A stretch of DNA of 64,000 nt from Streptomyces caelestis (lineage in GTDB: Bacteria; Actinomycetota; Actinomycetes; Streptomycetales; Streptomycetaceae), in NCBI RefSeq assembly GCF_001279005.1, contig NZ_LGCN01000240.1, forward strand, positions 62,001 through 126,000, written 5' to 3'. A program made the translations under genes and the position numbers. Positions 31,442-58,802 of the stretch are shown piece after piece; position 1 is the first letter of the stretch; every line of letters begins with the position of its first letter. The notes under the pieces were generated by a model, which worked only from the letters and a program-made list of their open reading frames with translations, did not search any database and was not told the DNA's origin.

Positions 31442-33025
31442 TCACGGAGGCGGCGGGCCGGCGTCGCCGGTCGGCCGGAGCAGCTCGGCCAGCTCCCTCT
31501 TGAGCACCTTTCCGCTCGATCCCAGGGGCAGACGGTCGAGGAAGACCACCCGCCGGGGGCGCCGGTAGGCCGCGATGTGGCGTTCACCCCAGGCCACCAG
31601 GGAGTCCGCCAGCTCCGCGCCCGGCGTCAGACCGTCCCGCGGCACCACCACGGCGCACACCTCCTGGCCGTGGACCGGATCGGGGAGCCCGACCACCGCG
31701 ACCCGGGCGACCGCGGGGTGCCGGAGCAGCGCGTCCTCGACCTCTCGGGGGTAGACGTTGTATCCGCCCCGCAGGATCACGTCCTTCTTGCGGTCGACGA
31801 CGGTCAGGTACCCCTCGTCGTCCAGCGTTCCGAGGTCTCCGGTGCGGAACCAGCCGGCGACGAACGCGGCGGCCGTGGCATCGGGGTCGTCGACGTATCC
31901 GGCCATCAGGTTGTGCCCGCGCACGACGATCTCGCCCACCTCTCCGGCGGGGAGCGGCTCCACGGTGTCCTCGGCCTCGGGGCGGGCCACGGCGACCTCC
32001 ACGCCCCAGACCGGTTTGCCGACCGTGCCGGGTCTCCTCGGCCAGTCGCGCTGGTTGTAGGCGACGCAGGGGGACGTCTCGGTGAGGCCGTACCCCTCGT
32101 AGACCGGGCAGCCGAAGCCGTCCTCGAACGCGGCGAGCGTGTGCGCCGGCAGGGCCGCACCCCCGGAGTAGGCGCGTTCCAGCCTCGGCCGTACGGGACG
32201 GCGGGAGGCCGCCTCGACGAGGGCGAAGTACATGGTGGGCACGCCCATCAGGACCGTGCACCCCTCGGTCTCCATCAGGTCCAGCGCGTCCTCGGCGGTG
32301 AACCTCCGCATCAGCACCAGCCTCGCCCCGGCCCGGAAGGACGTCCCCATGCCGCAGATCTGGCCGAAGGTGTGGGAGAGCGGCAGGCAGCCGAGCAGCA
32401 CGTCGGCGGAGCTCATCTCGAAGGGGGAGAGCATCGTGGTGGCGACGTTCATCACCAGGTTGAGGTGCGTGATCGCCGCGCCCTTGGGGCGGCCGGTGGT
32501 GCCGGAGGTGTAGAGGATCACCGCGATGTCGCCCGGGGCGCGGGGCACGGGTCCCGCCATCGGCGCGGCGGTGGCGGCGAGTTCGTCGAGCGCGGGGTGC
32601 GGGTCGTGGCCTTCGCCCGCGCCGACGGTGAGGACGGGGGTGCCCGCCGCCTCGGCCGCGGGCTCCGCCTCCCCCAGTGACTCGGCCGAGCAGACGAGGG
32701 CCCGGGCTTTCGAGTGGCGGAGGATGTAGGCGATGTCGTCGGTCTTCAGCAACACGTTCACGGGCACGGCGGTCGCGCCGAGGGCGAGGATCGCGAAGTA
32801 CGCCATCGGAAAGTGCGGCGAGTTGGTCACCAGCAGGCCGATCCGGTCGCCGGGGCCCGTTCCCCGCTCGCGCAGCACCGCCGCGTACCGGAGCGCCGAG
32901 CTCCAGAGCGAGCCGTAGGTGATCCGCTCGGCGCCGGCGACCAGCGCGATGCGATCCGGCCACCGGCCCGCGGAGTCCGAGAGGATCGTGGCCGCCGAAA
33001 GCGTCGAATTCCTGTAAGCACTCAT
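31442..33025 (-). CDS. Acyl-CoA ligase of the C5N pathway (MoeA4-like)
   Basis: A 527-residue class I adenylate-forming acyl-CoA ligase. I choose ATG 33025, with GGAG 5 nt upstream, over the preceding GTG. Motifs: VILYTSGTTGRPKGAAIT, GYGLTETSPCVAYNQ, GWFRTGDLGTLDDEGYL, DRKKDVILRGGYNVYPREVE and SSGKVLKRE. In moenomycin and manumycin-type clusters such a ligase activates 5-aminolevulinate as its CoA ester, which cyclises to 2-amino-3-hydroxycyclopent-2-enone (C5N). It is transcribed divergently from the 5-aminolevulinate synthase gene, with about 140 nt between them. An ordinary fatty-acyl-CoA ligase is the alternative; the neighbour makes the C5N role likely. Confidence 0.82.
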   Translation of the reverse strand: MSAYRNSTLSAATILSDSAGRWPDRIALVAGAERITYGSLWSSALRYAAVLRERGTGPGDRIGLLVTNSPHFPMAYFAILALGATAVPVNVLLKTDDIAYILRHSKARALVCSAESLGEAEPAAEAAGTPVLTVGAGEGHDPHPALDELAATAAPMAGPVPRAPGDIAVILYTSGTTGRPKGAAITHLNLVMNVATTMLSPFEMSSADVLLGCLPLSHTFGQICGMGTSFRAGARLVLMRRFTAEDALDLMETEGCTVLMGVPTMYFALVEAASRRPVRPRLERAYSGGAALPAHTLAAFEDGFGCPVYEGYGLTETSPCVAYNQRDWPRRPGTVGKPVWGVEVAVARPEAEDTVEPLPAGEVGEIVVRGHNLMAGYVDDPDATAAAFVAGWFRTGDLGTLDDEGYLTVVDRKKDVILRGGYNVYPREVEDALLRHPAVARVAVVGLPDPVHGQEVCAVVVPRDGLTPGAELADSLVAWGERHIAAYRRPRRVVFLDRLPLGSSGKVLKRELAELLRPTGDAGPPPP

Positions 33026-33162
33026 CACGACTCCGCTTCGCGTTCCGGTAATCGGCGGTCATCGGCCGTACGGCAGCAGGAAACGTATTCTGTGCAAGTC
33101 CCGCGGTGGATCCTAGGATGAGCCCGACCCATTGGGAAGCGGAAAAGGAGCGGACCTTGGAC

Positions 33163-34359
33163 ATGTCCCCGTACATGGACTTCTTCGTGCGCCTCGCCCA
33201 CGAAACCGGTGATCGAAAGCGGGAGTTCCTCGAACTGGGCCGCAAGGCGGGCCGATTCCCTGCGGCGAGCACCTCGGATGGCGAGATCTCCATCTGGTGC
33301 AGCAACGATTATCTGGGTATGGGGCAGCATCCGGACGTCCTGGACGCGATGAAGCGCGCCGTGGACGAATACGGCGCCGGATCAGGGGGTTCCCGGAACA
33401 TCGGCGGCACGAATCACTGCCATGTGGCTCTGGAGCGCGAGTTGGCCGACCTGCACGGCAAGGAGGACGCCGTTCTCTTCGCCTCGGGATATTCGGCCAA
33501 CGAGGGATCGCTGTCGGTGCTCGCGGGTGTCGTCGACGACTGCCAGGCGTTCTCGGATTCGGCGAACCACGCGTCCATCATCGACGGGTTACGGCACAGC
33601 GGCGCCCGCAAGCACATATTCCGTCACAACGACGGGCAGCACCTGGAGGAGCTGCTGGCCGCGGCCGATCCGGACCGGCCGAAACTGGTCGTCCTGGAGT
33701 CCGTGCACTCGATGCGGGGCGACATCGCGCCCCTGGCGGAGGTCGCCGGTCTGGCCAAGCGGTACGGAGCCGTCACGTTCCTCGACGAGGTGCACGCGGT
33801 CGGCATGTACGGGCCGGAGGGTGCGGGGATCGCGGCTCGCGCCGGTCTCGACTCCGATTTCACGGTGGTGATGGGGACCCTCGCCAAGGCCTTCGGCATG
33901 ACGGGCGGCTATGTCGCGGGACCGGCCGTGCTCATGGACGCGGTACGGGCCCACGCCCGTTCCTTCATCTTCACGACGGCGCTGCCGCCCGCGGTCGCGG
34001 CGGGCGCGCTCGCCGCGGCACGGCATCTGCGCGGCTCGGTCGTGGAGCGGGAGCGACTGGCGCGGAACGCCCGACTGATGCACGGGCTGCTGCGTGAGCG
34101 GGGCATTCCCGTGCTGTCGGACGAGTCCCACATCGTCCCCGTCCTGGTCGGCGAGGACGGGATGTGCCGGCGGATGTCGGTGCTGCTGCTGGAACGGCAC
34201 GGCGCGTACGTCCAGGCCATCGACGCGCCCAGCGTCCCGGTCGGTGAGGAGATCCTGCGGATCGCGCCCTCGGCGGTGCACGAGCCCGATGAGATCCACC
34301 GGTTCGTGGGCGCCCTGGACGGCGTCTGGTCCGAGCTGGGGGCGGCCCGGAAGGTCTGA
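33163..34359 (+). CDS. 5-Aminolevulinate synthase for the C5N unit (MoeC4-like)
   Basis: A PLP enzyme of the alpha-oxoamine synthase family that condenses glycine with succinyl-CoA. Streptomycetes make haem from glutamate, so an ALAS marks C5N synthesis. I start at ATG 33163 ([15 protein letters not shown] 12 nt upstream); TTG 33157 and ATG 33118 are alternatives. Motifs: [40 protein letters not shown] and the PLP lysine in [12 protein letters not shown]. Codon 143 is TTA (33589-33591), so translation needs the bldA tRNA. It converges on the ABC exporter gene with a 13-nt gap. Confidence 0.93.
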
Positions 34360-34372
34360 GGCCCCGCGGGTG

Positions 34373-36319
34373 TCACCGTCCGGGAGGGCCGGGCGGAGCG
34401 GGCCCGGCGTCCGCGGTCGCGTCTCCCGGACCCGTGCCGCTCCAGATCCTGCCCATCTCGGGGGATGCCGCCATGACCTCGTCGAAGGCGCCCGATGCCT
34501 CCACCCGCCCGTCCACGAGCACCACCACGCGGTCGGCCGCGCGCAGCAGCGCCGGCCGGTGGGAGACCGCGAGCACGGTGCGCGTCCCGTCCAGCAGCCT
34601 CTCCCACAGCAGGTGCTCGGTGTCCGGGTCCAGGGCGCTGGAGACGTCGTCCAGCACCAGGAGTTCGGGGCCGCCCGCCAGCATGCGGGCGATGGCGGCG
34701 CGCTGGACCTGTCCGCCCGACAGGCGCAGGCCGCGCGGGCCCACCACGGTGTCCGGTCCGTCCTGCATCGTCGCGAGGTCGGGCTCCATCACGGCGAGGC
34801 GGACGGCCTCGTCGAAGGCCGCGCCGTCCCGGCCCAGGAGGACGTTCTCCCGCACCGTCCCGCTGAACAGCCGCGGGACCTGCGGGGTGTATCCGCAGCG
34901 GGGTGCGATCAGGAACGAGGCCGGGTCGGTGACGGGTTCGCCGTTCCACAGGACGGTGCCCCCGTCGTGCGGCAGCAGTCCGAGCACGGCCCGGACGAGG
35001 GTGCTCTTGCCGGAGCCGACGCGGCCGGTGACCACGGTGACGGTGTGCCGCTCCACCACCAGGTCCACGTCCGCTATGCCGTGCGGTGTGCCGGGGTGGC
35101 GGGCCGTCAGGCGGCGGACGGTCAGTTCCCGCAGGGGCGACTCCCCTGGGGGCAGTCCCCGTGCGGGCGATTCCCGCGGGGACGGGGCGGGTCGCGGGTC
35201 GGTGTCCGGGGCGGCGGCCTTCTCCTCCGCTTCCGGTACGAGGGGCGGACCGGCCCGCTCCGGGGACCACCGCAGCCGGCCGCCGAGGAAACCGGCGACC
35301 CGTCCCAGCGCCACGGAGACCCGCTGCAGCCGTACGGACAGCATGCCGATCGAACCGAGGGCCTCGGTCAGGACCTGCAGGTAGAAGGCGAACAGGGCGA
35401 GGTCGCCGACGCTGAAGGCCCCCTCGTCCATCCGGCCCGCGACCAGCAGGAGCACCATGGCGACCCCGATCGGAGCCGCGTTGCCGATCACCGTGCGCTG
35501 GACGACGGCGTACAGTTCCTCCCGCACCGCGGCTCGGGCACGGACACCGTTCAGCCGGGTGACGTGCGCGGCGACCCGCGGTTCGGCGGCGGCCGCCTGC
35601 ACCGCTCCGACGGCGCCCACCATCTCCCGCAGGGCTCCCGCCACCTCGCCGGACGCGGCCCGGGTGGCGCGCCGGTAGCGCAGGAACCGGCTGTGGGCCA
35701 GTGCGGTGACCAGCGTCAGCAGGACGAGGAGGGCGAGAAGGGCGCCGGTGACCGCGGCGTCGACGCGCATCATCACCGTGACCGACGCGGCGACGAACAG
35801 CCAGTGGGCGAGGTTGGTCGGCGCCCAGGCGACGAAGAACCCCGTCTCGTCGACGTCCTCGCCCACGGTGCGCAGGGACTCACCGGGCGTGGTGCGGGCG
35901 GTCACCTCCGGCCCGCGCAGAGCCGAGCCGAGCAGGGCGTGCCGCAGCCGGGCCGTGGTGCCGTACTGGACCTTCGGCTCCAGCCTGGTGATGATCACGC
36001 CGAACTGGAGAAAGAGGCGTCCCGCCTCGATCCCGGCCACCAGGGCGATGATCAGCCATACGCCGCCGTCCGCGCCGAGCGCGTCGAACAGCCGCTGGAA
36101 CAGCAGCCCCACCGCGAGCGTGCCCAGCCGCAGGAGGATCCACAGACCGGTGAGGGTCCAGTAGACGCGGGCGGACCCGCGCAGCACGTCCACGAGCCGC
36201 CCGAGGACGGACCGCCGCTCGGCTCCCCCGGCCGCGGGCCCCGTCCGTTCCCGCTCCGCCTCCCGGTCCGCCGGCCCTCCTCCGTCGTCCGCCCGCTCCA
36301 CGGGCCGCAGCCGGGTCAC
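34373..36319 (-). CDS. ABC exporter half-transporter, second of a pair (MoeD5/MoeJ5-like)
   Basis: A fused membrane/ATPase exporter subunit of 648 residues, from GTG 36319. Residues 45-350 hold about six spans. The nucleotide-binding domain (about 420-625) has VVTGRVGSGKSTLVRAVLG (Walker A), LRLSGGQVQRAAIARML (signature) and LLVLDDVSSALDPDT (Walker B with D rather than E as the next residue). That degenerate catalytic acid is typical of the non-canonical half of heterodimeric exporters. It lies 17 nt downstream of the other exporter subunit, so they surely pair. The expected cargo is the phosphoglycolipid. The stretch 365-415 is a Pro/Ser-rich insertion before the ATPase. Confidence 0.9.
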   Translation of the reverse strand: MTRLRPVERADDGGGPADREAERERTGPAAGGAERRSVLGRLVDVLRGSARVYWTLTGLWILLRLGTLAVGLLFQRLFDALGADGGVWLIIALVAGIEAGRLFLQFGVIITRLEPKVQYGTTARLRHALLGSALRGPEVTARTTPGESLRTVGEDVDETGFFVAWAPTNLAHWLFVAASVTVMMRVDAAVTGALLALLVLLTLVTALAHSRFLRYRRATRAASGEVAGALREMVGAVGAVQAAAAEPRVAAHVTRLNGVRARAAVREELYAVVQRTVIGNAAPIGVAMVLLLVAGRMDEGAFSVGDLALFAFYLQVLTEALGSIGMLSVRLQRVSVALGRVAGFLGGRLRWSPERAGPPLVPEAEEKAAAPDTDPRPAPSPRESPARGLPPGESPLRELTVRRLTARHPGTPHGIADVDLVVERHTVTVVTGRVGSGKSTLVRAVLGLLPHDGGTVLWNGEPVTDPASFLIAPRCGYTPQVPRLFSGTVRENVLLGRDGAAFDEAVRLAVMEPDLATMQDGPDTVVGPRGLRLSGGQVQRAAIARMLAGGPELLVLDDVSSALDPDTEHLLWERLLDGTRTVLAVSHRPALLRAADRVVVLVDGRVEASGAFDEVMAASPEMGRIWSGTGPGDATADAGPAPPGPPGR

Positions 36320-36336
36320 GGCCCGTCCCCCGTCCC

Positions 36337-38088
36337 TCACCGGGCGGCCCCCGCCGTGCGGAGGAGTTCGTGGAAGTGCGACGAGGGGTCGGCGGCGAGG
36401 GCGGTCCGCTCCCCCTCCTCGGCGACCTCGCCGTCCTCCAGTACCAGGATCCGGTCGGCGTTGCGCAGCAGGTGCGGCCGGTGCTCGACCACGACGGCGG
36501 TCCTGCCGTCGAGAAGCCGCTCCAGCGCGGGCACCAGAAGCCGCTCGCTGTACGGATCCAGCCGGGCCGTCGGCTCGTCCATCAGGACCAGTCCCGGATC
36601 GCGCAGGAACACCCTGGCCAGCGCGAGTTGTTGCTCCTCGCCCGCGGACATGCCGCGGGCGCCGGCGCCGAGCAGCGTGTCCAGACCGTCGGGCAGGGTG
36701 CGCAGCCAGGGGCCGAGCCCCGCCTCGCCCAGCGCGGCGTGCAGCCGGTCGTCGGAAACGGTGCGGTCGAAGAAGGTGAGGTTGTCGCGCAGTGCGGCGT
36801 GGAAGACGTGCACCTCCTGCGTGACCAGCGCGACCCGGCCGCGCAACGCCCGGGGGTCGAGTTCCGTCACGTCCAGGCCTCCGGCCGACACCGTGCCCGT
36901 CACCGGCCGGTGGAGCCCGAACAGCAGCCGCACCACGGTGGACTTGCCGCTCCCGGTGCGCCCCACGACGCCGAGGCGTTCGCCGGGGCGCAGGGTGAAG
37001 GAGACGTCCCGCAGCACCGGCTCGTCGGGCTCGTAGGAGAAGGAGACCCGGTCGAAGCGGACGCCGGGCCGCCCGGCCGGCAGGGTCCGGTTCCCCGTGC
37101 GGGGCGCCGTCCCGTGGCCCAGCAGGTCCCTCAGCCGCTGGACGCTCGCGGCGGCGTCCTCCAGGTCGCGGAAGCGGGTGGTGACCGCGAGCAGGGGGCG
37201 GCGCAGCAGCATGGCGTAGGACAGGGAGGCGAAGGCCGTCCCGGTGGAGAGCTGGCCGCGGGAGTGCAGCCAGGCGCTGACCGCCAGGGCGAGGACGACG
37301 CTGACGGCGGACAGGCCCTGCACGGTGGCGGGCCAGCGGGCCGAGACACGGGCGGCCTCCCGGGCCTTGCGGTACAGGTCGTCCTGGCGCTCGCCGAGTT
37401 CCCGCAGCGTGTACCGCGCGGCCCCGTTGGAGCGCAGGTCCTCCGCCGCCGCGAGGCGCTCCTCGAGGAAGCCCTGCAGGTCCGCCGCCACCCGCTGCCG
37501 TGCGGTGACGAAGGGCATGGCGCGGCCCACCAGGGTCCGCAGCAGCAGAAGGGTGCCTGCCGCGAACGGGGCGAAGACCAGGGCGAGCCGCCACTCCAGC
37601 CGGAACAGGGCGACGAGGACGCCGACGATCAGCAGCGCCTGGGCCAGCAGCTCCAGCAGCAGCGCCGACATCACCGCGGCGAGCCGGGTGACGTCGCCGT
37701 CCATCCGCTCGACGAGTTCGCCCGGAGGATGTGCGCGGTAGAAGTCCGGCGGCCGGCTCAGGCAGTGCGCGACCAGGTCCGCACGGAGCCGGTCGGTGCT
37801 GCGCCAGGCCAGCCGCGAGGACAGCGCCTCGGTGCCCGTGGTGACCACGAGCACGCCCAGGGCGGCGGCCAGGGACCAGGCGGCCAGGTCCGTCAGCGCG
37901 CCGCCGGAGTCGCCCGAGAGCGTCCCGTCGATGAACCCGCGCAGCAGGTAGGGCGCCACGAGCTGGAGCACGATCCCGGAAGGGACCAGCAGGGCCAGCA
38001 GCGTCATGGCGGTCCGTTCGCCGCGCAGGTAGCGGACGAGCATGGAAAGGTGCCGTAACGGGCTGCCTGCCAACGTATCCTCCCCCAT
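36337..38088 (-). CDS. ABC exporter half-transporter, first of a pair (MoeD5/MoeJ5-like)
   Basis: 583 residues with an ABC_membrane domain of about six spans (20-310). Its ATPase domain has VVGRTGSGKSTVVRLLFG, GMSAGEEQQLALARVFL (signature with SAGEE) and LVLMDEPTARLDPYS (Walker B with catalytic Glu). It therefore carries the competent ATP site of the heterodimer. The start is uncertain: ATG 38088 lacks a ribosome site, while GGGGGAGG lies just before an in-frame TTG (38073). Both starts include a TTA codon at 38056-38058; a later ATG at 38043 would exclude it. It is divergent from the moeE5-like gene across a 328-nt promoter region. Confidence 0.9.
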   Translation of the reverse strand: MGEDTLAGSPLRHLSMLVRYLRGERTAMTLLALLVPSGIVLQLVAPYLLRGFIDGTLSGDSGGALTDLAAWSLAAALGVLVVTTGTEALSSRLAWRSTDRLRADLVAHCLSRPPDFYRAHPPGELVERMDGDVTRLAAVMSALLLELLAQALLIVGVLVALFRLEWRLALVFAPFAAGTLLLLRTLVGRAMPFVTARQRVAADLQGFLEERLAAAEDLRSNGAARYTLRELGERQDDLYRKAREAARVSARWPATVQGLSAVSVVLALAVSAWLHSRGQLSTGTAFASLSYAMLLRRPLLAVTTRFRDLEDAAASVQRLRDLLGHGTAPRTGNRTLPAGRPGVRFDRVSFSYEPDEPVLRDVSFTLRPGERLGVVGRTGSGKSTVVRLLFGLHRPVTGTVSAGGLDVTELDPRALRGRVALVTQEVHVFHAALRDNLTFFDRTVSDDRLHAALGEAGLGPWLRTLPDGLDTLLGAGARGMSAGEEQQLALARVFLRDPGLVLMDEPTARLDPYSERLLVPALERLLDGRTAVVVEHRPHLLRNADRILVLEDGEVAEEGERTALAADPSSHFHELLRTAGAAR

Positions 38089-38416
38089 TCGCCCGGCGGC
38101 GAACGACCAGCATAAAGTCCCCCGCGTCTCCTTGTGAATGACACCGGAATGCCGATTGCGCCCCTCCCGACCAGGGACTGAAGCATGCTATTGCTCGTGA
38201 TTGACGCGTGCTGTTAGACTCCCCAGGTCTCTTGGTCCGGACATGTGTTTCTCGACGCCAAAAGCCTGGTCAGCCGCGTTCTTCACCGCCGCACAGCGCC
38301 ACGGGCGTCCGGGCGGTCGGACCGGTCGATCCGGAGGCAGACGCGCGCACGTGCACCGAATGCACCGCCCAAGCACCGCCTTGAACAGCCACATGTGAGC
38401 GAAACAAGGGGGATTC
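38089..38416. other. Divergent promoter region between exporter genes and the moeE5-like gene
   Basis: 328 nt without a gene, driving the ABC pair leftward and the moeE5-moeM5 block rightward. A weak candidate promoter for the right side is TTGCTC (38191-38196) with TAGACT (38215-38220) at 18-bp spacing. No clear operator was seen. Confidence 0.45.
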
Positions 38417-39439
38417 ATGCCGAGCGACACACGCGGTACGGACTCAACGGACGACAACGTTCTGGTCACCGGTGCGGCCGGTTTCATCGGATCGCATCTC
38501 GTGACGGAATTGAGGAGTTCCGGCAGAAACGTTGTGGCGTTGGACCGCAAGCCATTTCCTGACGACTTGGAGAGGCGGCCGCCAGGCCTTTCCGGATCAC
38601 TCCGGACGATACGCGGCGATCTGAACTCGCTCCGTCTGGCGGACTGCCTGGAAAACACCTCGACGGTGTTCCACCTGGCCGCATTACCCGGGGTCCGCCC
38701 GTCGTGGACCCAATTCCCCGAGTACCTCCAGTGCAACGTACTGGCGACCCAGCGCCTGCTGGAGGCCTGCGTCCAGGCCGGAGTGGAACGCGTGGTGGTC
38801 GCCTCGTCGTCCAGCGTGTACGGCGGCGCGGACGGCGCGATGAGCGAGGACGACCTGCCCCGTCCGCTCTCCCCCTACGGGGTCACCAAGCTCGCCGCGG
38901 AGCGGCTGGCCCTGGCCTTCGCCGCCCGGGACGACGCCAAACTGTCGGTCGGCGCCCTGCGGTTCTTCACCGTCTACGGTCCCGGACAGCGCCCGGACAT
39001 GTTCATCTCCCGCCTGATCCGGTCGACGCTGCGCAACGAGCCCGTCGAGATCTACGGCGACGGGACCCAGCTCCGCGACTTCACCCACGTGTCCGACGTG
39101 GTGCGCGCGCTGGTGCTGGCCGCGGCGGTCCGGGACCGGGGCAGCGCGGTCCTGAACATCGGCACGGGGAACGCCGTCTCGGTCAACGAAGTGGTTTCCA
39201 TGACCACCGAGTTGACCGGATCGCGCCCGTGCACCTCGTACGGCGCGGCCCGCATCGGCGACGTCCGCTCGACCACCGCCGACGTCCGGCGGGCGGCCGG
39301 CGTCCTGGGCTTCACGGCCCGGACGGGACTGCGCGAGGGACTCGCCACCCAGATCGAGTCGACCCGGCGGTCGCTGGCCCGCGAAGCGCAGGACGCCGTC
39401 GCGGTCGACGGTTCCACGGCGTCCGCACCGCGGCTGTAG
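38417..39439 (+). CDS. moeE5: UDP-glucuronate 4-epimerase-like SDR (MoeE5-like)
   Basis: A 340-residue extended SDR with AAGGGGG ahead of ATG 38417. The NAD motif is VTGAAGFIGSHLV, the catalytic block SSSSVYGG, and YxxxK lies in YGVTKLAAERLA. LRFFTVYGPGQRPDM is the usual substrate-side string. In the moenomycin pathway MoeE5 supplies UDP-galacturonic acid for the first and the terminal sugar. Codon 90 is TTA (38684-38686), giving bldA dependence. The moeF5-like gene starts 5 nt after its stop, opening a seven-gene rightward block. A general UDP-hexose 4-epimerase is the alternative, but order and context favour MoeE5. Confidence 0.85.
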   Translation: MPSDTRGTDSTDDNVLVTGAAGFIGSHLVTELRSSGRNVVALDRKPFPDDLERRPPGLSGSLRTIRGDLNSLRLADCLENTSTVFHLAALPGVRPSWTQFPEYLQCNVLATQRLLEACVQAGVERVVVASSSSVYGGADGAMSEDDLPRPLSPYGVTKLAAERLALAFAARDDAKLSVGALRFFTVYGPGQRPDMFISRLIRSTLRNEPVEIYGDGTQLRDFTHVSDVVRALVLAAAVRDRGSAVLNIGTGNAVSVNEVVSMTTELTGSRPCTSYGAARIGDVRSTTADVRRAAGVLGFTARTGLREGLATQIESTRRSLAREAQDAVAVDGSTASAPRL

Positions 39440-39444
39440 CCGGC

Positions 39445-41394: not shown

Positions 41395-41401
41395 GAGAAC
41401 C

Positions 41402-42610
41402 ATGGCTGCTCCCGACCGACCGCACATCCACGTGCTCTCCCCCCGGACCTGGGGCGAGTTCGGCAACTACCTGGCCGCGACGCGCTTCTCCCGCGCCCTG
41501 CGGAGCGCGATCGACGCGGAGGTGACCCTCCTGGAGGCGGAACCGATCCTGCCGTGGATCGGGGAGGCCGGGGCGGAGATCCGGACCATCTCCCTGGAGA
41601 GCCCCGACGCGGTGGTCCGCAACCAGCGGTACATGGCTCTCATGGACCGCCTCCAGACGCGTTTCCCGGAAGGGTTCGAGGCCGACCCCACGCCCGCCCA
41701 GCGGGCCGACCTGGAGCCCCTCACCCGGCATCTGCGCCGTACCGCCCCGGACGCGGTGGTCGGCACGAAGGGGTTCGTGGCGAGGCTGTGCGTCGCCGCC
41801 GTCCGGCTGGCCGGAACGTCCACCCGGGTGGTCAGCCACGTGACCAACCCCGGGCTGCTGCACCTGCCGCTGCACCGCAGCCGGTACCCGGACCTGACGT
41901 TGGTCGGCTTCCCCCGGGCGAAGGAGCACCTGCTCGCCACGGCCGGCGGCGACCCGGAGCGCGTACGGGTGGTGGGGCCGCTCGTCGCGCAGCACGACCT
42001 GCGGGACTTCATGACCAGCGAGTCGGCCGCCTCCGACGCGGGCCCCTGGGGCGCCGGTCCGGGCCCGGACCGGCCCCGGGTGATCGTCTTCTCCAACCGG
42101 GGCGGGGACACGTACCCGGAGCTGGTGCGGCGCCTCGCCGACCGGCACCCCGGCATCGACCTCGTCTTCGTCGGCTACGGCGACCCCGAGCTGGCCCGTC
42201 GCACCGCGGCCGTCGGACGACCCCACTGGCGGTTCCACAGCGTGCTCGGGCAGAACGAGTACTTCGACTACATCCGCCGTGCCTCCCGGTCGAGGTACGG
42301 GCTCCTCATCTCGAAGGCCGGCCCCAACACCACCCTCGAGGCGGCCTACTTCGGCATACCGGTGCTGATGCTCGAATCGGGGCTGCCCATGGAGCAGTGG
42401 GTGCCGGGACTCATCGACGAGGAGGGGCTGGGCCGCGCCTGCGCCACACCCGAGGAGCTCTTCGGCACGGCGGACGACTGGCTGTCCCGCCCCTCGGTGA
42501 TCGAGGGGCACAAGAAGGCCGCGCTCTCCTTCGCCGACTCCGTGCTGGACCAGGACGCGGTGACGGACCGGATCGGAGCCGCCCTCCGGGCCCTGCTGGA
42601 AGCCCGGTGA
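41402..42610 (+). CDS. moeGT1: GT-B glycosyltransferase, MurG-like (MoeGT1-like)
   Basis: 402 residues behind a strong AGGAGAACC site. The fold is GT-B: N-domain with VLSPRTWGEFGNYLAATRFS and a C-domain with VIVFSNRGGDTYPELV, FHSVLGQNEYFDYI and ISKAGPNTTLEAAYFGIPVLM. The last string matches the nucleotide-sugar-binding end of MurG/MGDG-synthase-type enzymes (SGPGTxxEAxxxGxP). In moenomycin, MoeGT1 puts galacturonic acid on farnesyl-phosphoglycerate. Its place between MoeF5- and MoeH5-like genes is the basis for the symbol. Its stop overlaps the next start (GTGA). Confidence 0.8.
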   Translation: MAAPDRPHIHVLSPRTWGEFGNYLAATRFSRALRSAIDAEVTLLEAEPILPWIGEAGAEIRTISLESPDAVVRNQRYMALMDRLQTRFPEGFEADPTPAQRADLEPLTRHLRRTAPDAVVGTKGFVARLCVAAVRLAGTSTRVVSHVTNPGLLHLPLHRSRYPDLTLVGFPRAKEHLLATAGGDPERVRVVGPLVAQHDLRDFMTSESAASDAGPWGAGPGPDRPRVIVFSNRGGDTYPELVRRLADRHPGIDLVFVGYGDPELARRTAAVGRPHWRFHSVLGQNEYFDYIRRASRSRYGLLISKAGPNTTLEAAYFGIPVLMLESGLPMEQWVPGLIDEEGLGRACATPEELFGTADDWLSRPSVIEGHKKAALSFADSVLDQDAVTDRIGAALRALLEAR

Positions 42611-44148: not shown

Positions 44149-44226
44149 CGACCGGACACCCGCACACCCGTCAGACCCGCACACCGCACCCGACCACAGC
44201 CGCAGGGCCCAGAAGGAGCGCACCGC

Positions 44227-48633: not shown

Positions 48634-48650
48634 CGCCGGGCCCCGGGTGA

Positions 48651-48675: not shown

Positions 48676-48681
48676 TTCCGG

Positions 48682-49512
48682 TCATCCGCCCAGGTGCCGG
48701 GGGACGAGCCGGGTCAGCACGTCGTCCGTGTAGAGGTGGACGACCTGCACCAGGCCGGGGGCGCCGGGGGGCGCCTGGACGGCGGCCAGCGCCCGCCCGC
48801 GCAGTTCCTCCAGCTGGGCCACGACGTCCTGGCCAGCGACCGCCCCGGTCCGCATCAGATGGGCGAGGTTGCCGTCCCGCTCGCCGTTGCGGTCGTAGTC
48901 GGTCAGGTCGTCGGCCGTGGTGATGGTCAGGGCGAAGGCCTCCGCGAACTCCCTCACGGCGTGGCCCGGTTGGCCGTCTCCGCCGCAGGCGGCCGCGAGC
49001 GCCCCGTAGCGGCCCAGGAAGGCGGCGCCGTAGGTGCTCGCGTGGGCGCGCCACTCCTGGAGGTTCGTCGCCCGGCTGCGTTTGGTGCCTATCTGACCGC
49101 CGCAGAGGTAGACGGCGTCCCGCTCCAGGATGTCCGTCACCGCCTTGGGCTCCCGGGCGAGGGAGGCCAGTTCGTGGAGGGCCCGCAGATGCAGGCGGAG
49201 GCAGACACAGGCGAGTTCGACCCGGTCGAGGCCGGTGTCGTCGTCCATCAGGTCGTCGAGGAGCTTCATGGAGACGATGTCGAGGGCCAGCGCGCGGGAG
49301 ACCGCGGCCCGCCGGTCGGGGTCGGTCGTCCACTCGGTGAGGAAGTGGGGGACCCGCAGGTACAGGCGGAGGGCGGCGGTGTGGGCCACCAGGTCCGGCG
49401 ATCCCCCGGTCTCGGCGACGCAACGGGTGACGTGGTCGCGGTTGGCGGCCTCGGCGGCGAGCATGGACCGCGTGTAGTCCGCGGGCAGGGCCGTGACCGG
49501 GGCGGCCGTCAC
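48682..49512 (-). CDS. moeN5: Prenyltransferase forming the moenocinol-type C25 chain (MoeN5-like)
   Basis: 276 residues, all-helical, from GTG 49512, which overlaps the MoeO5 stop. Acid-rich motifs sit where isoprenoid synthases bind magnesium: KLLDDLMDDDTG (about residue 83) and TTADDLTDYDRNGERDGN (about 195). MoeN5 couples geranyl diphosphate to the farnesyl group of the lipid-sugar intermediate, producing the branched C25 chain. Size, motifs and the coupling to a MoeO5-like gene make this very likely. Terpene cyclases share the fold but not the context. Confidence 0.87.
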   Translation of the reverse strand: MTAAPVTALPADYTRSMLAAEAANRDHVTRCVAETGGSPDLVAHTAALRLYLRVPHFLTEWTTDPDRRAAVSRALALDIVSMKLLDDLMDDDTGLDRVELACVCLRLHLRALHELASLAREPKAVTDILERDAVYLCGGQIGTKRSRATNLQEWRAHASTYGAAFLGRYGALAAACGGDGQPGHAVREFAEAFALTITTADDLTDYDRNGERDGNLAHLMRTGAVAGQDVVAQLEELRGRALAAVQAPPGAPGLVQVVHLYTDDVLTRLVPRHLGG

Positions 49513-50354
49513 CGCCCGCTCCCCGGGCGGGCCGGGGCCGCGGAGCGTTCCCCGCCGATCTCGGCGAGGGTGGCCCGCCAGTCCGGGTGTTCCAGCGCTC
49601 CGGCGAATCCCACGCGGTCGGCCCCGCTGTCGAGGTAGTCGGTGACCTGCCGGCCGGTGCGGACGTTGCCGCTCACGAAGAGGACCTGGTCGGGTCCGAG
49701 CCCTTTGCGGAAGTGCCGTACGACCTCGGGGGGCACGTGGTCGTTGCGCGAGTACAGGTAGACCATGTGGAAGCCGAAGGTACGGGCGACGTGGAGGTGC
49801 CGGTCGATCTCCTCGGTGCTCGTGGTGCTCACCGGCATGGTGCCGAGCAGGTCCCCGGTGCGCCGGTCCTCGCCGAAGGTGAGGGCGACGGTGAGGATCA
49901 GCTCGGGCCACTCCTCGCGGGGTATGCGGCCGGGACAGGCGGCCAGGGTCTCCAGGAAGCTCTTCCACACGAAGTAGTCGTCGCCGGAGCCCAGCAACGC
50001 GGGCAGCAGCACCGCGTCCGCGCCGCGGACCACCGGGAACCCGGCCCCCGGGCGGGGTGGGAAGTGCAGGACGACCGGCAGCGTCGTGACCGCCTTCACC
50101 GCCGCCACGTACGGTTCCATGTGCGACTCGAACGACTCGTAGTCCGTGCTGGCCAGGATGACGGCGGCGAAGCCCAGCCGCGTGAGTTCCGCCGCCTTCT
50201 CGACCGCCTCCGTCACCGGGACCTTGAAGGGGTCGATGATGTGGACGGGACCCGGCCGGTGGTCGCGCAGCCGGGCGAGTACACGCCCCGGCTGCCAGAG
50301 CGGTGGTGCGGCGTGGAGTTCGGTGTGGTGGTCGAGCCGTGGTAAGGCGTTCAC
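49509..50354 (-). CDS. moeO5: Farnesyl-3-phosphoglycerate synthase (MoeO5-like, PcrB/GGGPS fold)
   Basis: A 281-residue TIM-barrel prenyltransferase that attaches farnesyl (2Z,6E) to 3-phosphoglycerate, the committed step of phosphoglycolipids. GTG 50354 follows GGGGGAAG. Family landmarks: VHIIDPFKVPVTEAVEKAAE, ILASTDYESFESHMEP, GADAVLLPALLGSGDDYFVW, HMVYLYSRNDHVPPEVV (the YLE/YLYS-type strand) and VSGNVRTGRQVTDYLDSGAD. Codon 4 is TTA (50343-50345), which would stop translation almost at once without bldA tRNA. It is coupled to moeN5 by GTGA. This gene is the best diagnostic of the cluster type. Confidence 0.92.
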   Translation of the reverse strand: MNALPRLDHHTELHAAPPLWQPGRVLARLRDHRPGPVHIIDPFKVPVTEAVEKAAELTRLGFAAVILASTDYESFESHMEPYVAAVKAVTTLPVVLHFPPRPGAGFPVVRGADAVLLPALLGSGDDYFVWKSFLETLAACPGRIPREEWPELILTVALTFGEDRRTGDLLGTMPVSTTSTEEIDRHLHVARTFGFHMVYLYSRNDHVPPEVVRHFRKGLGPDQVLFVSGNVRTGRQVTDYLDSGADRVGFAGALEHPDWRATLAEIGGERSAAPARPGSGR

Positions 50355-50861: not shown

Positions 50862-50892
50862 AACGCCCCGGCACTTTGCCGCGCGGGGCGTT
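50862..50892 (-). terminator. Hairpin after the ABC permease gene
   Basis: A 9-bp perfect stem (50862-50870 with 50884-50892) with a 13-nt loop, 21 nt beyond the permease stop on the minus strand. Confidence 0.65.
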
Positions 50893-50913
50893 TCCAGCGG
50901 TCCGGGGCGTAAT

Positions 50914-51594
50914 TCACGCGAATTGCAGATGGCGTCGGCGCCGCAATCGGCCCGCCATCACGCATCCGCTCGCCGCGCCCAGCAGCAGCGTCACTCCGAC
51001 GGCGTGCGTCACCCCGGAGGCGAACGAACCGGCGTCGGCGCCGTCGACGGCGTAGGTGATGATCTCCCGGGTCGACCAGAAGGGCAGCGCCTTGGCCGAA
51101 TCCTTGGCCGGGTCCATCACCATCTGGGCGCCGATGACGGAGATCAGCAGCAGGGCGCCCTCCATGTCCCTCGGCACCACCGCCCCGAGCAGCAGCCCCA
51201 GGGGCACGGCGACCAGCGTGGTCAGCAACAGTTCCACCAGGACGGCCTGCGGGTGCTGCACGTCCTGCCCGACCAGGATCACCACCGCGTAGAGGGCGCT
51301 GACGCCCAGGCCCGCGGTGAGGAGGGCCAGCAGGCGCCCCGCGAAGAGCTGGAGCGGACGGAACCCGGAGAGGGCCAGGAGCGGTTCGATCTCCCGGCCG
51401 CCGACCGTGGAGAAGAGGGCCGCGGCGCTGACCGCGAAGCCCACGCCGAGGCTGGCGAAGCGGACGGCCTGCCCGGTCTGGTCGTAGCGCCCGAGGTAGA
51501 AGACGAGCGGGACCAGCAGCAGCAGGCCCAGCACGCCTCGTCGGCGCAGCAGTTCGCGGAAGGTCATGTCCGCCATCCGCAGGGTGGCTGTCAT
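50914..51594 (-). CDS. ABC transporter permease (MoeX5/MoeP5-type)
   Basis: A 226-residue ABC-2-like membrane protein with about six spans (for example GVLGLLLLVPLVFYLGRY, VELLLTTLVAVPLGLLLG, LASGVTHAVGVTLLLG-like end). Its ATG overlaps the ATPase stop (ATGA). Together with that ATPase it forms a small two-component exporter, the second transporter in the cluster. In moenomycin producers two transporter pairs are also present. The C-terminus is basic (RLRRRRHLQF). The cargo is unknown but presumably the glycolipid or an intermediate. Confidence 0.82.
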   Translation of the reverse strand: MTATLRMADMTFRELLRRRGVLGLLLLVPLVFYLGRYDQTGQAVRFASLGVGFAVSAAALFSTVGGREIEPLLALSGFRPLQLFAGRLLALLTAGLGVSALYAVVILVGQDVQHPQAVLVELLLTTLVAVPLGLLLGAVVPRDMEGALLLISVIGAQMVMDPAKDSAKALPFWSTREIITYAVDGADAGSFASGVTHAVGVTLLLGAASGCVMAGRLRRRRHLQFA

Positions 51595-52262
51595 CGGATG
51601 CCCCTGTCCTTGCCGGGGGTGAGATCCAGCACCTGGTCCACCTGGTCGAGTTGGTTGAGCATGTGGGTGACCACGACGACGGCCCTGCCGGCCTCGCGCC
51701 ATGCCCGGACGCTCCGCCAGAAGTCCACGTACGAACCGTGGTCGAACCCCTGGTAGGGCTCGTCGAGCAGCAGCAGGTCGGGGGCGCCGAGGGCCGACAG
51801 CACGACGTTCAGCTTCTGACGGGTGCCACCCGACAGGTCCTTGGCGAGGACGCCCCGCGCGGGGGACCAGTCGAGCTCTCCCGCGAGTTTCCGGCCACGG
51901 TGGTCGGACTCCTTGCGGCTCAGACCCCGGCCGGCGCCGAAGAGGGTGAAGTGCTCCCCGGGGGTCAGGAAACCCATGACGCCGGCGTTCTGCGGGCAGT
52001 AACCGAGGCTGCCGGAGACGGTGACCCGCCCCTTGTCGGGGGAGATCAGGCCGGCGCAGATCTTGAGCAGGGTGGACTTGCCCGCCCCGTTGCCGCCGAC
52101 GATCGCGGCGATCTCGCCCGCGTGCACGACGAGGTCCACACCGGTCAGGACGCGGCGGCGTTTGTAGCGCTTCGCGATGCCCCGCGCCTGCAGGAGGACT
52201 TTACGGCCGGCGGGCTCGGACATGCCGTGGAACCCCTCTCGGGCACCGACGGAATAGCCCAT
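51591..52262 (-). CDS. ABC transporter ATP-binding protein (MoeX5/MoeP5-type)
   Basis: A cytoplasmic ATPase. ATG 52262 (AAAGGTGG upstream) gives 223 residues; ATG 52223 (MSEPAG, GAGGGG upstream) is also plausible. Motifs: AIVGGNGAGKSTLLKICAG (Walker A), KDLSGGTRQKLNVVLSALG (signature LSGGT) and LLLLDEPYQGFDHG (Walker B), with VVVTHMLNQLDQVDQVLDL as switch region. It is coupled to the permease. It lies divergently from the glycosyltransferase at 52.7 kb across about 450 nt. Confidence 0.92.
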   Translation of the reverse strand: MGYSVGAREGFHGMSEPAGRKVLLQARGIAKRYKRRRVLTGVDLVVHAGEIAAIVGGNGAGKSTLLKICAGLISPDKGRVTVSGSLGYCPQNAGVMGFLTPGEHFTLFGAGRGLSRKESDHRGRKLAGELDWSPARGVLAKDLSGGTRQKLNVVLSALGAPDLLLLDEPYQGFDHGSYVDFWRSVRAWREAGRAVVVVTHMLNQLDQVDQVLDLTPGKDRGIR

Positions 52263-52714
52263 GGCTGCCACCTTTCTGCCGACCGCGACAAACGGCACGC
52301 GTTGCCGGCCTCAATGGTCAGGATGTGTGTCCCGGCCGGGTTCGCCGCCCCGGCCGACGCTCGCGGACTCAGCCTGCCACACGCGGCGTGCGGGGCGGCC
52401 GGGGCCGCGATTCCCCGGAAGTCCGGGTCTCCCGCGAGCCGGTTTCGGGGGATCCTACGGGGCGGCCGGCCGGTGGCGGGATCCCTGCCCCGCATTTCGG
52501 CCATCTGTTTCCCCCGCCCGGAACCGCTCTTGCAGGCCCGCCCAACGGCTGGTTAGCGTACCGACCCAGCCACACTCATCGCTCACTCGTGCGTTGCCCG
52601 CATTCGTGTTCAATTCGCCTCTTCCGGAGTTCACCGCCGGAACGGGAACCGGTGGGCCGCACCCCGTGTCAGGACCAGAGGGAATTTCCGCTCGGAACGA
52701 CGAAGGGGACGTGG
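52263..52714. other. Divergent promoter region
   Basis: About 450 nt between the ABC ATPase (minus) and a glycosyltransferase (plus). Longer plus-strand frames through it lack coding character. It should contain both promoters; I could not fix their boxes. Confidence 0.45.
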
Positions 52715-53923: not shown

Positions 53924-53963
53924 CACACGAGGCCGCCCCGAGGGCGGCCCGGAAGGAGACCCG

Positions 53964-54779
53964 ATGGCGACAGCCGGTCCGACCGGGGCGGCGGTGACCG
54001 TCATCCTGCCCCACCACGACTGTGCGGCGTACCTGGGTGCGGCCGTCGCGTCGGTGCTCGCCCAGGACCGTCCGGACCTCCGGCTGACGGTGGTGGACGA
54101 CTGCTCACCCGACGAGAAGTGGGTCCCCGAGCTCCGTCCGTACGCCGGCGACCCGCGGCTGACGGTGCTGCGCACCTCCCGGAACGTCGGGCACCTGCGG
54201 ATCAAGAACAAGGTCCTGGAGTCGGTGGACACCCCCTACGTGGCCTTTCAGGACAGCGACGACATCAGCCTGCCGGGCCGGCTCCGCCATCAACTGGCCG
54301 CCCTGGAGAAGGACCGTGCCGACCTGGTCGGGTGCGCCTACTCCTGCATCGACGAGGCCGGCCGCACGACGGGGCGGCGACGCATGCCCCGCAACGGCAA
54401 CCTGTGGATGCGGCTGGGGCGGACGACCGTGCTCCTGCATCCGTCCTCGGTGGTGCGGCGCTCGGTGCTGGAGACCCTCGGCGGCTTCGACGGCACCGTG
54501 CGGCTGGGCGCCGACACCGACTTCCACCTCCGGGCGGCCCGCCTGTACCGGCTGCGCAGCGTGCGCAAGGTGCTCTACCGGTACCGGATCTGGCCCAAGT
54601 CGCTCACCCAGGCGCCCGACACCGGATTCGGGTCCGCGCAACGACGGGCGTACACGGAGGCGATGACCGCCCAGGAGGAGCGAAGGCGACGGGCCCGCAC
54701 CCGTGAGGAGCTGCTCCCGCTGCTGATCGCCCCGCCCAACGACATCGACTTCACCCTGACCCGGGTCGAGCTCGGTTAG
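53964..54779 (+). CDS. GT2 glycosyltransferase, single domain (MoeGT2/GT3 candidate)
   Basis: 271 residues behind a perfect GGAAGGAG. GT-A motifs: VTVILPHHDCAAYLGAAVAS, LTVVDDCSPDEKWVPEL, YVAFQDSDDISLPGRLRHQL (the DxD as DSDD) and LGADTDFHLRAARLYRL, which carries the likely catalytic Asp region. Family-2 enzymes of this compact type add hexoses to glycans. It follows the preceding transferase by 40 nt and precedes the next by 8 nt. It could add the branching glucose or the terminal galacturonate; the sequence does not settle which. Confidence 0.87.
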   Translation: MATAGPTGAAVTVILPHHDCAAYLGAAVASVLAQDRPDLRLTVVDDCSPDEKWVPELRPYAGDPRLTVLRTSRNVGHLRIKNKVLESVDTPYVAFQDSDDISLPGRLRHQLAALEKDRADLVGCAYSCIDEAGRTTGRRRMPRNGNLWMRLGRTTVLLHPSSVVRRSVLETLGGFDGTVRLGADTDFHLRAARLYRLRSVRKVLYRYRIWPKSLTQAPDTGFGSAQRRAYTEAMTAQEERRRRARTREELLPLLIAPPNDIDFTLTRVELG

Positions 54780-54787
54780 GGGCGGGT

Positions 54788-56389: not shown

Positions 56390-56536
56390 GGACCTGCTTC
56401 CGGTGCACGTGAGGACGGAAGGCCGTACGGGTGGGGACAAAAGCCCGGCACACGTGAGCAGGGGCGGCGCCCGTGAGGCGTGGAGTCCGTACGTGAGACG
56501 GCGCGCCGGACGGGTCCGGCGCACCGTCCGCCCGGA

Positions 56537-57658
56537 TCAGACCAGCCGGTGGCCGGTTTCCGGCGCCACGGAGTCGCCCTCCATGGCCCGGCAGGTGGCC
56601 CGCAGGGCGGCGACGACGGCGTGGTCCTCCCCCCAGGCGTCGAGGTCCGGGCCGTCCCCTGTCTTCAGGGCCGGCACCGGCACCTCCATGATCTTCGGGT
56701 GCACGTACCGGACCGGGGTTTCGGAGGGGGCCACCAAGGACTCGGTGAGTTTCTCCCCCGGTCTCAGTCCGACGTAGTGGACCGGAAGCTCCGCGCCCGC
56801 CCGCGCGATGACCCTTCGTGCGATGTCGAGGATCCGGACCTGCTCCCCCATGTCCAGCACCAGGGCGTGACCGACGCTGCCCAGCGCGGCCGACTGGACG
56901 ACCAGTTCCACGGCCTCCTGCACGGTCATCAGATAACGCGTCACCCCCGGGTGGGTGACCGTCACCGGGTTTCCGGCCGCGACCTGGCGGGCGAAGACGT
57001 CGAGGAAGGACCCCTGGCAGCCGAGCACGTTGCCGAACCGCACGCTCACGTACGGCCTGCCCGCCTGGATGGCGGCCGCCGCGGTGAGTCCCTCGGCTAT
57101 GCGCTTGGAGTATCCGAGCACCCCGACCGGGTCGACCGCCTTGTCGGTCGAGATGTTCACCAGGAACGCGACGTCCGCGGCCAGCGCCGCGTCCAGGACC
57201 GCCCGGGTGCCGAAGACGTTCGTCTTGACGGCCTCGCCGGGGAACTCCTCGAGGATGGGGACCCACTTGAGGGCCGCCGCGTGGAAGACGATGTCCGGTC
57301 GGCACCGGTGGAAGAGCCGCGTGAGCCCCCTGGAGTCCCTGATGTCGGCGAGGAGGATGCCGGGGCGCACCGACGAGGGGCCGTCCGCGACGCTGCCGGC
57401 CGCCAGGTGAAGAGCCGTCTCGTTGCGGTCGAGCATCATGAGGCTCTCGGGTGCCCACCGGCTGAGCTGCCGGCACAGCTCCGATCCGATGTAGCCGCCG
57501 GCCCCGGTGACCAGGATCCGCCGGCCGCGCAGGAATCCGGCACTGCTCTCGAGGCCGGTCCTTATCCGCTGCCGACCGAGAATTCCTTCGAGGTCCAGGG
57601 CGGGATGGTCGCCGGTTGGCAGGTGCGCACCGTACCCTGCGGAATTATCGTCAAACAT
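56537..57658 (-). CDS. moeR5: UDP-GlcNAc 4,6-dehydratase, CapD/FlaA1 type (MoeR5-like)
   Basis: ATG 57658 (MFDDNSAGYG) with AAAGGAAG upstream gives 373 residues. The Rossmann motif is VTGAGGYIGSELCRQL, followed by ILLADIRD, FHAAALKWVPILEEFP (the AALKHVP-type block of this family), NISTDKAVDPVGVLGYSKR (SDR Ser/Thr and YxxxK) and VRFGNVLGCQGSF. It lacks the N-terminal membrane region of long CapD proteins, so it is cytosolic. MoeR5 makes UDP-4-keto-6-deoxy-GlcNAc for chinovosamine. Its partner reductase lies 313 nt upstream on the same strand. Confidence 0.87.
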   Translation of the reverse strand: MFDDNSAGYGAHLPTGDHPALDLEGILGRQRIRTGLESSAGFLRGRRILVTGAGGYIGSELCRQLSRWAPESLMMLDRNETALHLAAGSVADGPSSVRPGILLADIRDSRGLTRLFHRCRPDIVFHAAALKWVPILEEFPGEAVKTNVFGTRAVLDAALAADVAFLVNISTDKAVDPVGVLGYSKRIAEGLTAAAAIQAGRPYVSVRFGNVLGCQGSFLDVFARQVAAGNPVTVTHPGVTRYLMTVQEAVELVVQSAALGSVGHALVLDMGEQVRILDIARRVIARAGAELPVHYVGLRPGEKLTESLVAPSETPVRYVHPKIMEVPVPALKTGDGPDLDAWGEDHAVVAALRATCRAMEGDSVAPETGHRLV

Positions 57659-57971
57659 GCAGTCACACTTCCTTTTTGACAAGAGCCATGACTGATGTGC
57701 CGACCGACACGACGAACTGGACCGACGTGTCGTCTTGGTGCTTTCTTCGCCGACACCATTGCGCTGTCTTCCCGGGGCGTTGTGCCCGAGGACCACATTC
57801 CGGCGGCCGTTCGCCACCTGCCGCACCGGCTCCGTCGACGTCGGGCGGATCCGCGTGGACGTCCGGAGGCGGCCGGGATCGTCACCTTATCGAGGGGCGG
57901 GCCGGCGCGGGGCGATTTCCTCGACCGCCGCCGGACACGCCCGGCGGCGCCGGGCGGTGAGCCGGGCCGGC
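57659..57971. other. Upstream region of the moeR5-like gene
   Basis: 313 nt between two codirectional minus-strand genes. No gene is supported. The segment at 57650-57700 is less GC-rich and probably carries the moeR5-like promoter. Confidence 0.45.
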
Positions 57972-58802
57972 TCACGGGCCGCCGACGCCGAGGAATTCGC
58001 GCGCGCCCCGCAAGCGGGTCCGGACCCGGGCCCGGGTGGCGTCGGTGACGAGGCGGATGTCCAGCCCTCCCGGCGGGTCCACGTCGCTGCGCAGCCCGGC
58101 CGGCAGCCGGGCGGGGTCCAGTCCGTCGCGCCGGGCGATGAGGACGCCCAGTTCGTGACGGTTCATCGCGTCCGGTCCGGCCACGTGGAACACACCGGAT
58201 CCGTCCGACTCCGTGATCTCCAGGAGGGCGGAGGCCAGATCGTCGACGTGGACCGGGCAGCGGGTGTCGTCCGTGAACAGGACGCCGGCGCGGGTACCGG
58301 CCGCGAGGGCGTGCACGGCCTTCTCGTGGGCGGACCGGCCATGCCCCACGATGAGCGAGGTGCGCACCACTGCGGCCTCGGGCACCGTCACCCTCACGGC
58401 CGTCTCCGCCGCGGCCTTGGCGGCTCCGTAACGGGAGACGGGGTCGGGGAGCGCGTCCTCGCGGTAGTGGACGTCGGCTCCGGAGAACACCGCGTCGGAG
58501 GAGACGTGGACCAGCCGGCACCCGGCCCGCGCCGCGTGCAGGGCCAGCCGGACCGCGCCGTCGGCCGTGACCGCCCAGTCGGTGTGCCCGCCGGCCGTGT
58601 TGATCACCGCGGCCGGACGGGCCCGGTCCAGTACTTCTTCCATCCGCCCCGCATCACGCAGGTCGGCCCGGTACCAGGTGACCGGCAGCAGGTCTCCCGG
58701 GGTGGTCCGGTAGGTCGCGGCCACGTCCCATCCGGCGGCCACGGCCCGGCGGAGCACTTCGCGCCCGAGGAACCCGCTCCCGCCGACGACAAGCACTCTC
58801 AC
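57972..58802 (-). CDS. moeS5: NDP-4-keto-6-deoxysugar reductase, RmlD-like SDR (MoeS5-like)
   Basis: 276 residues. The cofactor motif is VVGGSGFLGREVLRRAVAAG, the RmlD-type VINTAGGHTDW appears in the middle, and the catalytic part has VHVSSDAVFSG with YxxxK in SRYGAAKAAAE. FHVAGPDAMNRHELGVLIAR is the usual C-terminal RmlD-like block. It would reduce the 4-keto product of the MoeR5-like dehydratase to UDP-N-acetylchinovosamine. It is the rightmost recognisable cluster gene. The symbol rests mainly on the MoeR5-like neighbour. Confidence 0.8.
   Translation of the reverse strand: MRVLVVGGSGFLGREVLRRAVAAGWDVAATYRTTPGDLLPVTWYRADLRDAGRMEEVLDRARPAAVINTAGGHTDWAVTADGAVRLALHAARAGCRLVHVSSDAVFSGADVHYREDALPDPVSRYGAAKAAAETAVRVTVPEAAVVRTSLIVGHGRSAHEKAVHALAAGTRAGVLFTDDTRCPVHVDDLASALLEITESDGSGVFHVAGPDAMNRHELGVLIARRDGLDPARLPAGLRSDVDPPGGLDIRLVTDATRARVRTRLRGAREFLGVGGP

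Follow-up and report, generated by a model that had tools for sequence, protein, structure and literature searches.

The 64-kb window analysed here, a stretch of 64,000 nucleotides of high-GC DNA from Streptomyces caelestis whose parent genome (8.62 Mb) is assembled in 287 contigs, carries by gene calling a block of 20 genes in 27.4 kb (31442-58796). Their content and order make it very probable that the block is a complete and apparently functional locus (moe cluster 1) of the S. viridosporus/S. ghanaensis type for moenomycin, a phosphoglycolipid antibiotic whose form A, according to PMC13096315, is the one compound known to inhibit peptidoglycan glycosyltransferases directly at nanomolar levels. 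The locus includes two genes for the C5N ring, an acyl-CoA ligase and a cyclizing 5-aminolevulinate (ALA) synthase (cALAS).

Gene content of the moe locus

MoeO5 joins farnesyl to 3-phosphoglycerate. The window protein has the PcrB/MoeO5 domain in Pfam, is 90% identical to a S. viridosporus protein and matches the solved MoeO5 structure (PDB 3vk5) with 580 bits and an E-value of 5.7e-174, against 38.5 bits and 7.3e-9 for the best geranylgeranylglyceryl phosphate synthase (GGGPS). MoeN5 has no Pfam match and aligns to the solved enzyme (PDB 5b00) with 527 bits and an E-value of 5.6e-158. These matches rule out that the two proteins are unrelated GGGPS or terpene synthases, the grouping that an earlier note on this DNA had named as fatal to its assignment and that was not seen on checking. 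Four relatives (Streptomyces sp. DH41 and JHA26, S. fumanus JCM 4477 and S. viridosporus NRRL 2414) carry these genes in unchanged order, with protein identities of 77-97%, which excludes chance; the exceptions are JHA26, which has no ligase at this position, and NRRL 2414, whose cluster falls on two contigs, the unread part including E5 and J5. The genes, by window position, are as follows.

31442..33025, minus strand: C5N acyl-CoA ligase ("all", moeB5-type), 527 residues, full length; Pfam AMP-binding and C-terminal domains
33118..34359, plus strand: cALAS (moeA5-type), 413 residues; TIGR01821, PDB 7x98, tree
34373..36319, minus strand: ABC exporter half-transporter (moeD5-like); PF00005, PF00664; syntenic in relatives
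36337..38088, minus strand: ABC exporter half-transporter (moeJ5-like); PF00664, PF00005; syntenic in relatives
38417..39439, plus strand: nucleotide-sugar epimerase (moeE5-like); PF01370
39445..41394, plus strand: glutamine-dependent amidotransferase (moeF5-like); PF13537 and PF00733
41402..42610, plus strand: probable glycosyltransferase, GT-B type of fold (moeGT1-like); structure model, no Pfam match
42607..44148, plus strand: Asn-synthetase-like amidotransferase (moeH5-like); PF00733 only, SGGRDS at 186
44227..45741, plus strand: B12-dependent radical SAM methylase (moeK5-like); PF04055 and PF02310, CxxxCxxC at 241
45731..47041, plus strand: probable GT-A-fold glycosyltransferase (moeGT number not assigned); structure model, paralogue of 52715-53923
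47041..48633, plus strand: carbamoyltransferase (moeM5-like); PF16861 and PF02543 on the longer frame 46798-48633
48682..49512, minus strand: MoeN5 prenyltransferase; PDB 5b00
49509..50354, minus strand: MoeO5; PDB 3vk5
50914..51594, minus strand: ABC-2 permease (moeX5-like); PF12698/PF01061 below cut-offs, start from the gene caller
51591..52298, minus strand: ABC ATPase (moeP5-like); PF00005
52715..53923, plus strand: probable glycosyltransferase; paralogue of the 45731 gene, no Pfam match for the frame 52325-53923
53964..54779, plus strand: GT2 glycosyltransferase (GT2a); PF00535
54788..56389, plus strand: GT2 glycosyltransferase (GT2b) with a 250-residue N-terminal extension; PF00535 at 255-369
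56537..57658, minus strand: NDP-sugar dehydratase (moeR5-like); PF02719
57972..58796, minus strand: RmlD-like ketoreductase (moeS5-like); PF04321

Most of these moe names are assigned from gene order and domains, in part following the earlier note. Published text supports the naming of MoeE5 as an epimerase (PMC3814723) and the roles of MoeO5, MoeN5 and MoeH5 (PMC13096315). The start of the moeM5-like gene was placed at 47041 from the sequence and its translation, where it overlaps the preceding stop codon (TGATG). By analogy with MoeH5, for which PMC13096315 reports transfer of C5N onto the galacturonate, the moeH5-like protein, in which Pfam recognised no glutaminase domain, is predicted to attach the C5N unit.

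The homologues of the moenomycin enzymes listed in the earlier note, and with them its call of a moenomycin-type phosphoglycolipid cluster, are thus confirmed by Pfam domains, PDB matches and conserved order in relatives, with K5, M5, O5, N5 and H5 homologues and five glycosyltransferase-like genes present. Its count of five glycosyltransferases stands as a count of such genes, while three of them lack a Pfam match and are assigned from a structure model or paralogy. The model of the 45731-47041 protein (pLDDT 82.5) retrieved hyaluronan synthase (E 1.4e-9) and a mannosyltransferase (1.4e-8) in Foldseek, both GT-A enzymes, and the 52715 protein shares 41% identity with it over 385 alignment columns. 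The model of the 41402-42610 protein (pLDDT 87.2) retrieved GT-B glycosyltransferases and UDP-GlcNAc 2-epimerases (best E 1.2e-10), a type of fold common to glycosyltransferases and non-hydrolysing epimerases. Since the query TM-scores of the listed matches are modest (about 0.3-0.45 for the 45731 protein and about 0.4-0.65 for the 41402 protein), the models support the fold class and not the substrate. In six comparisons the ratio of nonsynonymous to synonymous substitution (omega) of GT2b was 0.41-0.71, the highest in the cluster against all four close relatives and not against two more distant ones, and GT2b is possibly a place where the products diversify. The gene content fits the C-methylated, carbamoylated, five-sugar product with a C25 lipid that had been predicted; for moenomycin A itself, PMC12402327 prints an ion of 1582.667.

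The C5N pair of the moe locus

Both reading frames of the C5N pair are open over their full length, with the adenylation motif (TSGTTGRPKG) in the ligase and the PLP-lysine motif (GTLAKAFG) in the cALAS. When the ligase was compared with its own genome it scored 1179 bits against itself and 238 bits (36% identity) against the next best protein, so that no second close ligase was found in the assembled genome; other full-length matches reached 39% and shorter pieces 46%. The cALAS scores 521 bits against TIGR01821 (cut-off 338.55) and matches PDB 7x98 with an E-value of 1.3e-125; it belongs to the ALAS family, has the catalytic lysine motif and shares a branch with other C5N enzymes, and cyclizing activity is predicted. 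Omega (Nei-Gojobori) was 0.11-0.25 for the cALAS in seven comparisons and 0.29-0.43 for the ligase in six, beside 0.10-0.52 for O5, 0.16-0.50 for N5 and 0.22-0.47 for H5, values that indicate purifying selection on the pair like that on the core genes. In the cALAS of BV286 and lincolnensis a stop codon lies near residue 14 of the window protein numbering, and most likely precedes the true start.

In a midpoint-rooted tree of 52 cALAS sequences, comprising every fourth of 120 listed proteins together with chosen ones, the window enzyme falls into one clade with 11 other moe-locus enzymes (support 0.994), in the cluster-1 branch and not in that of moeC4. The window therefore holds the A5/B5 pair, and the C4-type locus is separate here too, on the contig that we call C214. 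The earlier note was correct in placing moeA4-B4-C4 apart from the core in S. ghanaensis (PMC4525017); its identification of the C5N genes beside the core with that set does not stand, these being the cluster-1 paralogues.

The window holds two members of the C5N triad (acyl-CoA ligase, cALAS and amide synthetase), and no amide synthetase was found in it, the C214 amide synthetase as query matching only the ligase, at 31%. As a candidate for the missing member, the AMP-ligase gene at 24516-25994 was rejected, having no match to the C214 amide synthetase at E 1e-3; its product is 27% identical to the ligase and its neighbours encode KASIII-like and P450-like proteins.

The C214 locus and the acyl-CoA ligase

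The moeC4-type locus on C214 consists of a cALAS (L083:5073-6329) and an adenylating enzyme (L083:6667-8232), head to head. The cALAS pairs in the tree with the S. viridosporus protein P0090 (96% identity), which we infer to be moeC4. The adenylating enzyme is 78% identical to its counterpart in the full triad on contig C30 of JHA26, which is flanked there by the ligase and the cALAS, and is read as the amide synthetase. Taking JHA26, as an assumption, as a proxy for the ancestor, the two loci align across the amide synthetase and the first part of the ligase, and again from beyond the ligase end, which gives a deletion of some 1.56 kb. At it the two alignments overlap by 8 bases, and 14 of the 16 N-terminal ligase residues are still recognisable; neither of the stretches compared contains an N. 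Integrase-core (transposase) genes stand on both sides, so that the cALAS and amide synthetase of C214 (L083:5073-8283 and L083:8895-9764) form an orphan pair enclosed by them. The ten C214 proteins scanned included no polyketide synthase. The locus is likely the remnant of a C4-type C5N locus.

Because the C214 ligase is deleted, and the window pair is full length and apparently under purifying selection, the moe locus would have to supply the ligase, with C214 keeping the cALAS and the amide synthetase. This would be the reverse of the situation described in PMC4525017, in which the cluster-1 C5N genes of S. ghanaensis are impaired (moeA5 non-functional, the ligase truncated, the amide synthetase missing) and are compensated by moeA4-B4-C4 elsewhere; S. 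viridosporus T7A and S. bambergiensis are reported there to share that situation.

JHA26 presents the mirror image of the window genome: beside its moe cALAS there is no ligase, at most a 22-residue trace (E 0.4), and its C30 locus keeps one; a further ligase (C16:47708), 50% identical and 7.6 kb away, may serve the same step. DH41 has the ligase in both loci, and its second C5N triad includes a cALAS of another branch, so that it speaks neither for nor against the C4-type case. Retention and loss of C5N genes seem to alternate between the moe locus and a second, incomplete copy. For moenomycin strains with a second, C4-type C5N locus, we regard it as somewhat short of an even chance that the two loci share one ligase, of which either copy can be lost, and that the moe locus is a minimal C5N system in which MoeH5 replaces the amide synthetase. 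The reciprocal loss is the one new point of the locus, and it is drawn from two genomes that were read (the window genome and JHA26) and from the truncated moe-locus ligase of S. ghanaensis as printed in PMC4525017. No published report of it was recognised from titles and the beginnings of abstracts, a search outside which the original moe papers lay. Since MoeO5 occurs in only 5 of 392 genomes of the genus and 2 of 296 relatives (the window genome counted in both), the comparison could not be extended; moenomycin clusters, though not common, are well known.

When the C214 amide synthetase was searched against 12 genomes, matches at least as good as that of DH41 (302 bits) turned up only in the window genome, JHA26 and DH41; the window genome has, besides C214 itself, a 43% match on contig C62, where no cALAS-like match lies. 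The remaining nine scored no higher than 196 bits or had no hit at E 1e-50. In eight of them no cALAS above 39% other than that of the moe locus was found, and each of these eight has the ligase. The reported transfer of C5N by MoeH5 (PMC13096315) would make an amide synthetase unnecessary for the moe locus. A diverged amide synthetase could have escaped the search, that of DH41 being itself 39% identical.

Several points weigh against an active window pair and its supply of the ligase. An intact frame and motif are no proof of activity, since the cluster-1 cALAS of S. ghanaensis (ATCC 14672) is called non-functional in PMC4525017 and the cALAS of NRRL 2414, in which no lesion is visible, is 90% identical to that of the window; either the ATCC 14672 defects are strain-specific or functional loss can be invisible in sequence. 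Nor does the low omega point to a particular step for the enzyme. In an assembly of 287 contigs, a second ligase could be missing despite the stated completeness of 99.98%.

A rival reading is a moenomycin-type cluster whose C5N pair is a relic, as reported for S. ghanaensis cluster 1, with a nosokomycin-like product that has no C5N ring. The published non-functional cALAS speaks for it, as does the distribution of the triad, the window being without an amide synthetase and C214 without a ligase, so that neither locus alone is complete. We nevertheless consider it unlikely, given that neither gene is truncated or has a damaged motif, that omega is core-like, that the reported MoeH5 activity perhaps makes an amide synthetase unnecessary, and that every one of the eight genomes with only a moe-locus cALAS retains both ligase and cALAS.

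Layout in relatives and the proposed pathway

A pattern scan of one genome per species over 84,980 species, not exhaustive, gave 15 loci with a MoeO5 relative, whose flanks were fetched and the window genes placed on them. The cALAS adjoins the D5/J5 exporter in all 11 readable Streptomyces relatives (DH41, JHA26, fumanus, viridosporus NRRL 2414, BV286, lavendofoliae, WAC 04229, noursei, lincolnensis, IMTB 2501 and also S. clavuligerus), and the ligase is in place in ten, being absent in JHA26. The moeR5/S5 genes adjoin each other and GT2b in the four closest relatives, DH41, JHA26, fumanus and NRRL 2414. In BV286, lavendofoliae, noursei and lincolnensis the 8-12 kb read past GT2b did not contain them, nor were they found at the S. 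clavuligerus locus; the stretches of WAC 04229 and IMTB 2501 end about 2 kb past GT2b and that of S. calidiresistens short of it, so that these three do not count either way. This distribution suggests a clade-specific deoxy sugar.

Compactness at a single locus is therefore the rule among relatives and not a novelty, and neither the one compact unit that the earlier note regarded as unusual nor its placing of moeR5/S5 beside the core as new is borne out, the latter because the same adjacency occurs in four relatives. That moeA4-B4-C4 and moeR5-S5 were newly gathered to the core is extremely improbable: genes of these kinds do flank it, but tree and synteny contradict the idea, the C5N genes being cluster-1 paralogues that occupy this place in the relatives and the C4-type locus lying on another contig.

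S. calidiresistens is the eleventh Streptomyces of the scan; its stretch (15.7 kb) ends in F5, with the C5N flank outside it and 8.4 kb of the contig unread. This genome has a moe cluster and no cALAS-like match better than E 2e-7, so that its product would be expected to lack the C5N ring.

The cluster of NRRL 2414 has the same genes and order where read, at 79-93% protein identity, with D5, A5 and B5 on one contig and F5 to S5 on another; its ligase is full length, and its draft genome has no second cALAS above 39%. The window differs from ATCC 14672, for which PMC4525017 reports intact cluster-2 C5N genes, in having a full-length cluster-1 pair and a second locus without ligase. DH41, JHA26 and S. 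fumanus share the window's order, JHA26 differing in its missing ligase and DH41 in its second triad. The plasmid-borne cluster of S. clavuligerus ATCC 27064 keeps the order from ligase to GT2a, at 60-88% identity, and the 14.7 kb that follow GT2a gave no match to moeR5/S5 or GT2b. Actinoplanes (A. rectilineatus, A. subtropicus) has O5, K5, M5, N5, E5, F5, glycosyltransferase and D5/J5 homologues, but at 39-80% identity, in rearranged order and with a partial H5 match of 31-35%; no cALAS-like match above 39% was found in A. subtropicus or A. liguriensis. A short contig of a Cellulomonas metagenome-assembled genome (L016) encodes relatives of MoeO5 (54%) and MoeN5 (48%) and one glycosyltransferase matched by both the 45731 and the 52715 proteins, possibly a simpler phosphoglycolipid cluster.

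The block conserved in the relatives' stretches runs from the ligase (31442) to moeS5 (58796). Outside it lie genes for a GDSL esterase (30143-31279), a kinase (59369-60868), and an epimerase and a UbiA protein (62035-63932). At E 1e-8 they had no match in the relatives' stretches, some of whose flanks are short, bar one to the epimerase (42% over one third of its length, in A. subtropicus), and they are therefore probably not members of the cluster. A separate small group at 21744-28035 encodes an epimerase, the P450-like protein, the AMP-ligase and the KASIII-like protein.

TTA codons occur in O5 (codon 4), E5 (90), the cALAS (158), J5 (11, depending on the chosen start) and M5 as read here. 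For moeO5 and moeE5 of S. ghanaensis (ATCC 14672), TTA codons and bldA dependence are reported (PMC3814723), and the window cluster may depend on bldA in the same way.

The pathway can be proposed from homology and the known route. MoeO5 would join farnesyl to 3-phosphoglycerate and N5 make the C25 lipid, while GT1 and the four further glycosyltransferases would build the sugar chain from nucleotide sugars provided by E5, R5 and S5. F5 would amidate, K5 C-methylate and M5 carbamoylate. The C5N ring would come from the ligase (31442) and the cALAS (33118) and be attached by MoeH5, and the two ABC pairs would export the product.

With a C5N pair that apparently works lying beside MoeH5, one locus would bring the whole pathway into 27 kb for heterologous expression, in contrast to S. 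ghanaensis, which is reported to need a second locus (PMC4525017). Should the reciprocal loss of the ligase prove true of further strains, it would offer a clear example of mutual dependence between the genes of two antibiotic clusters.

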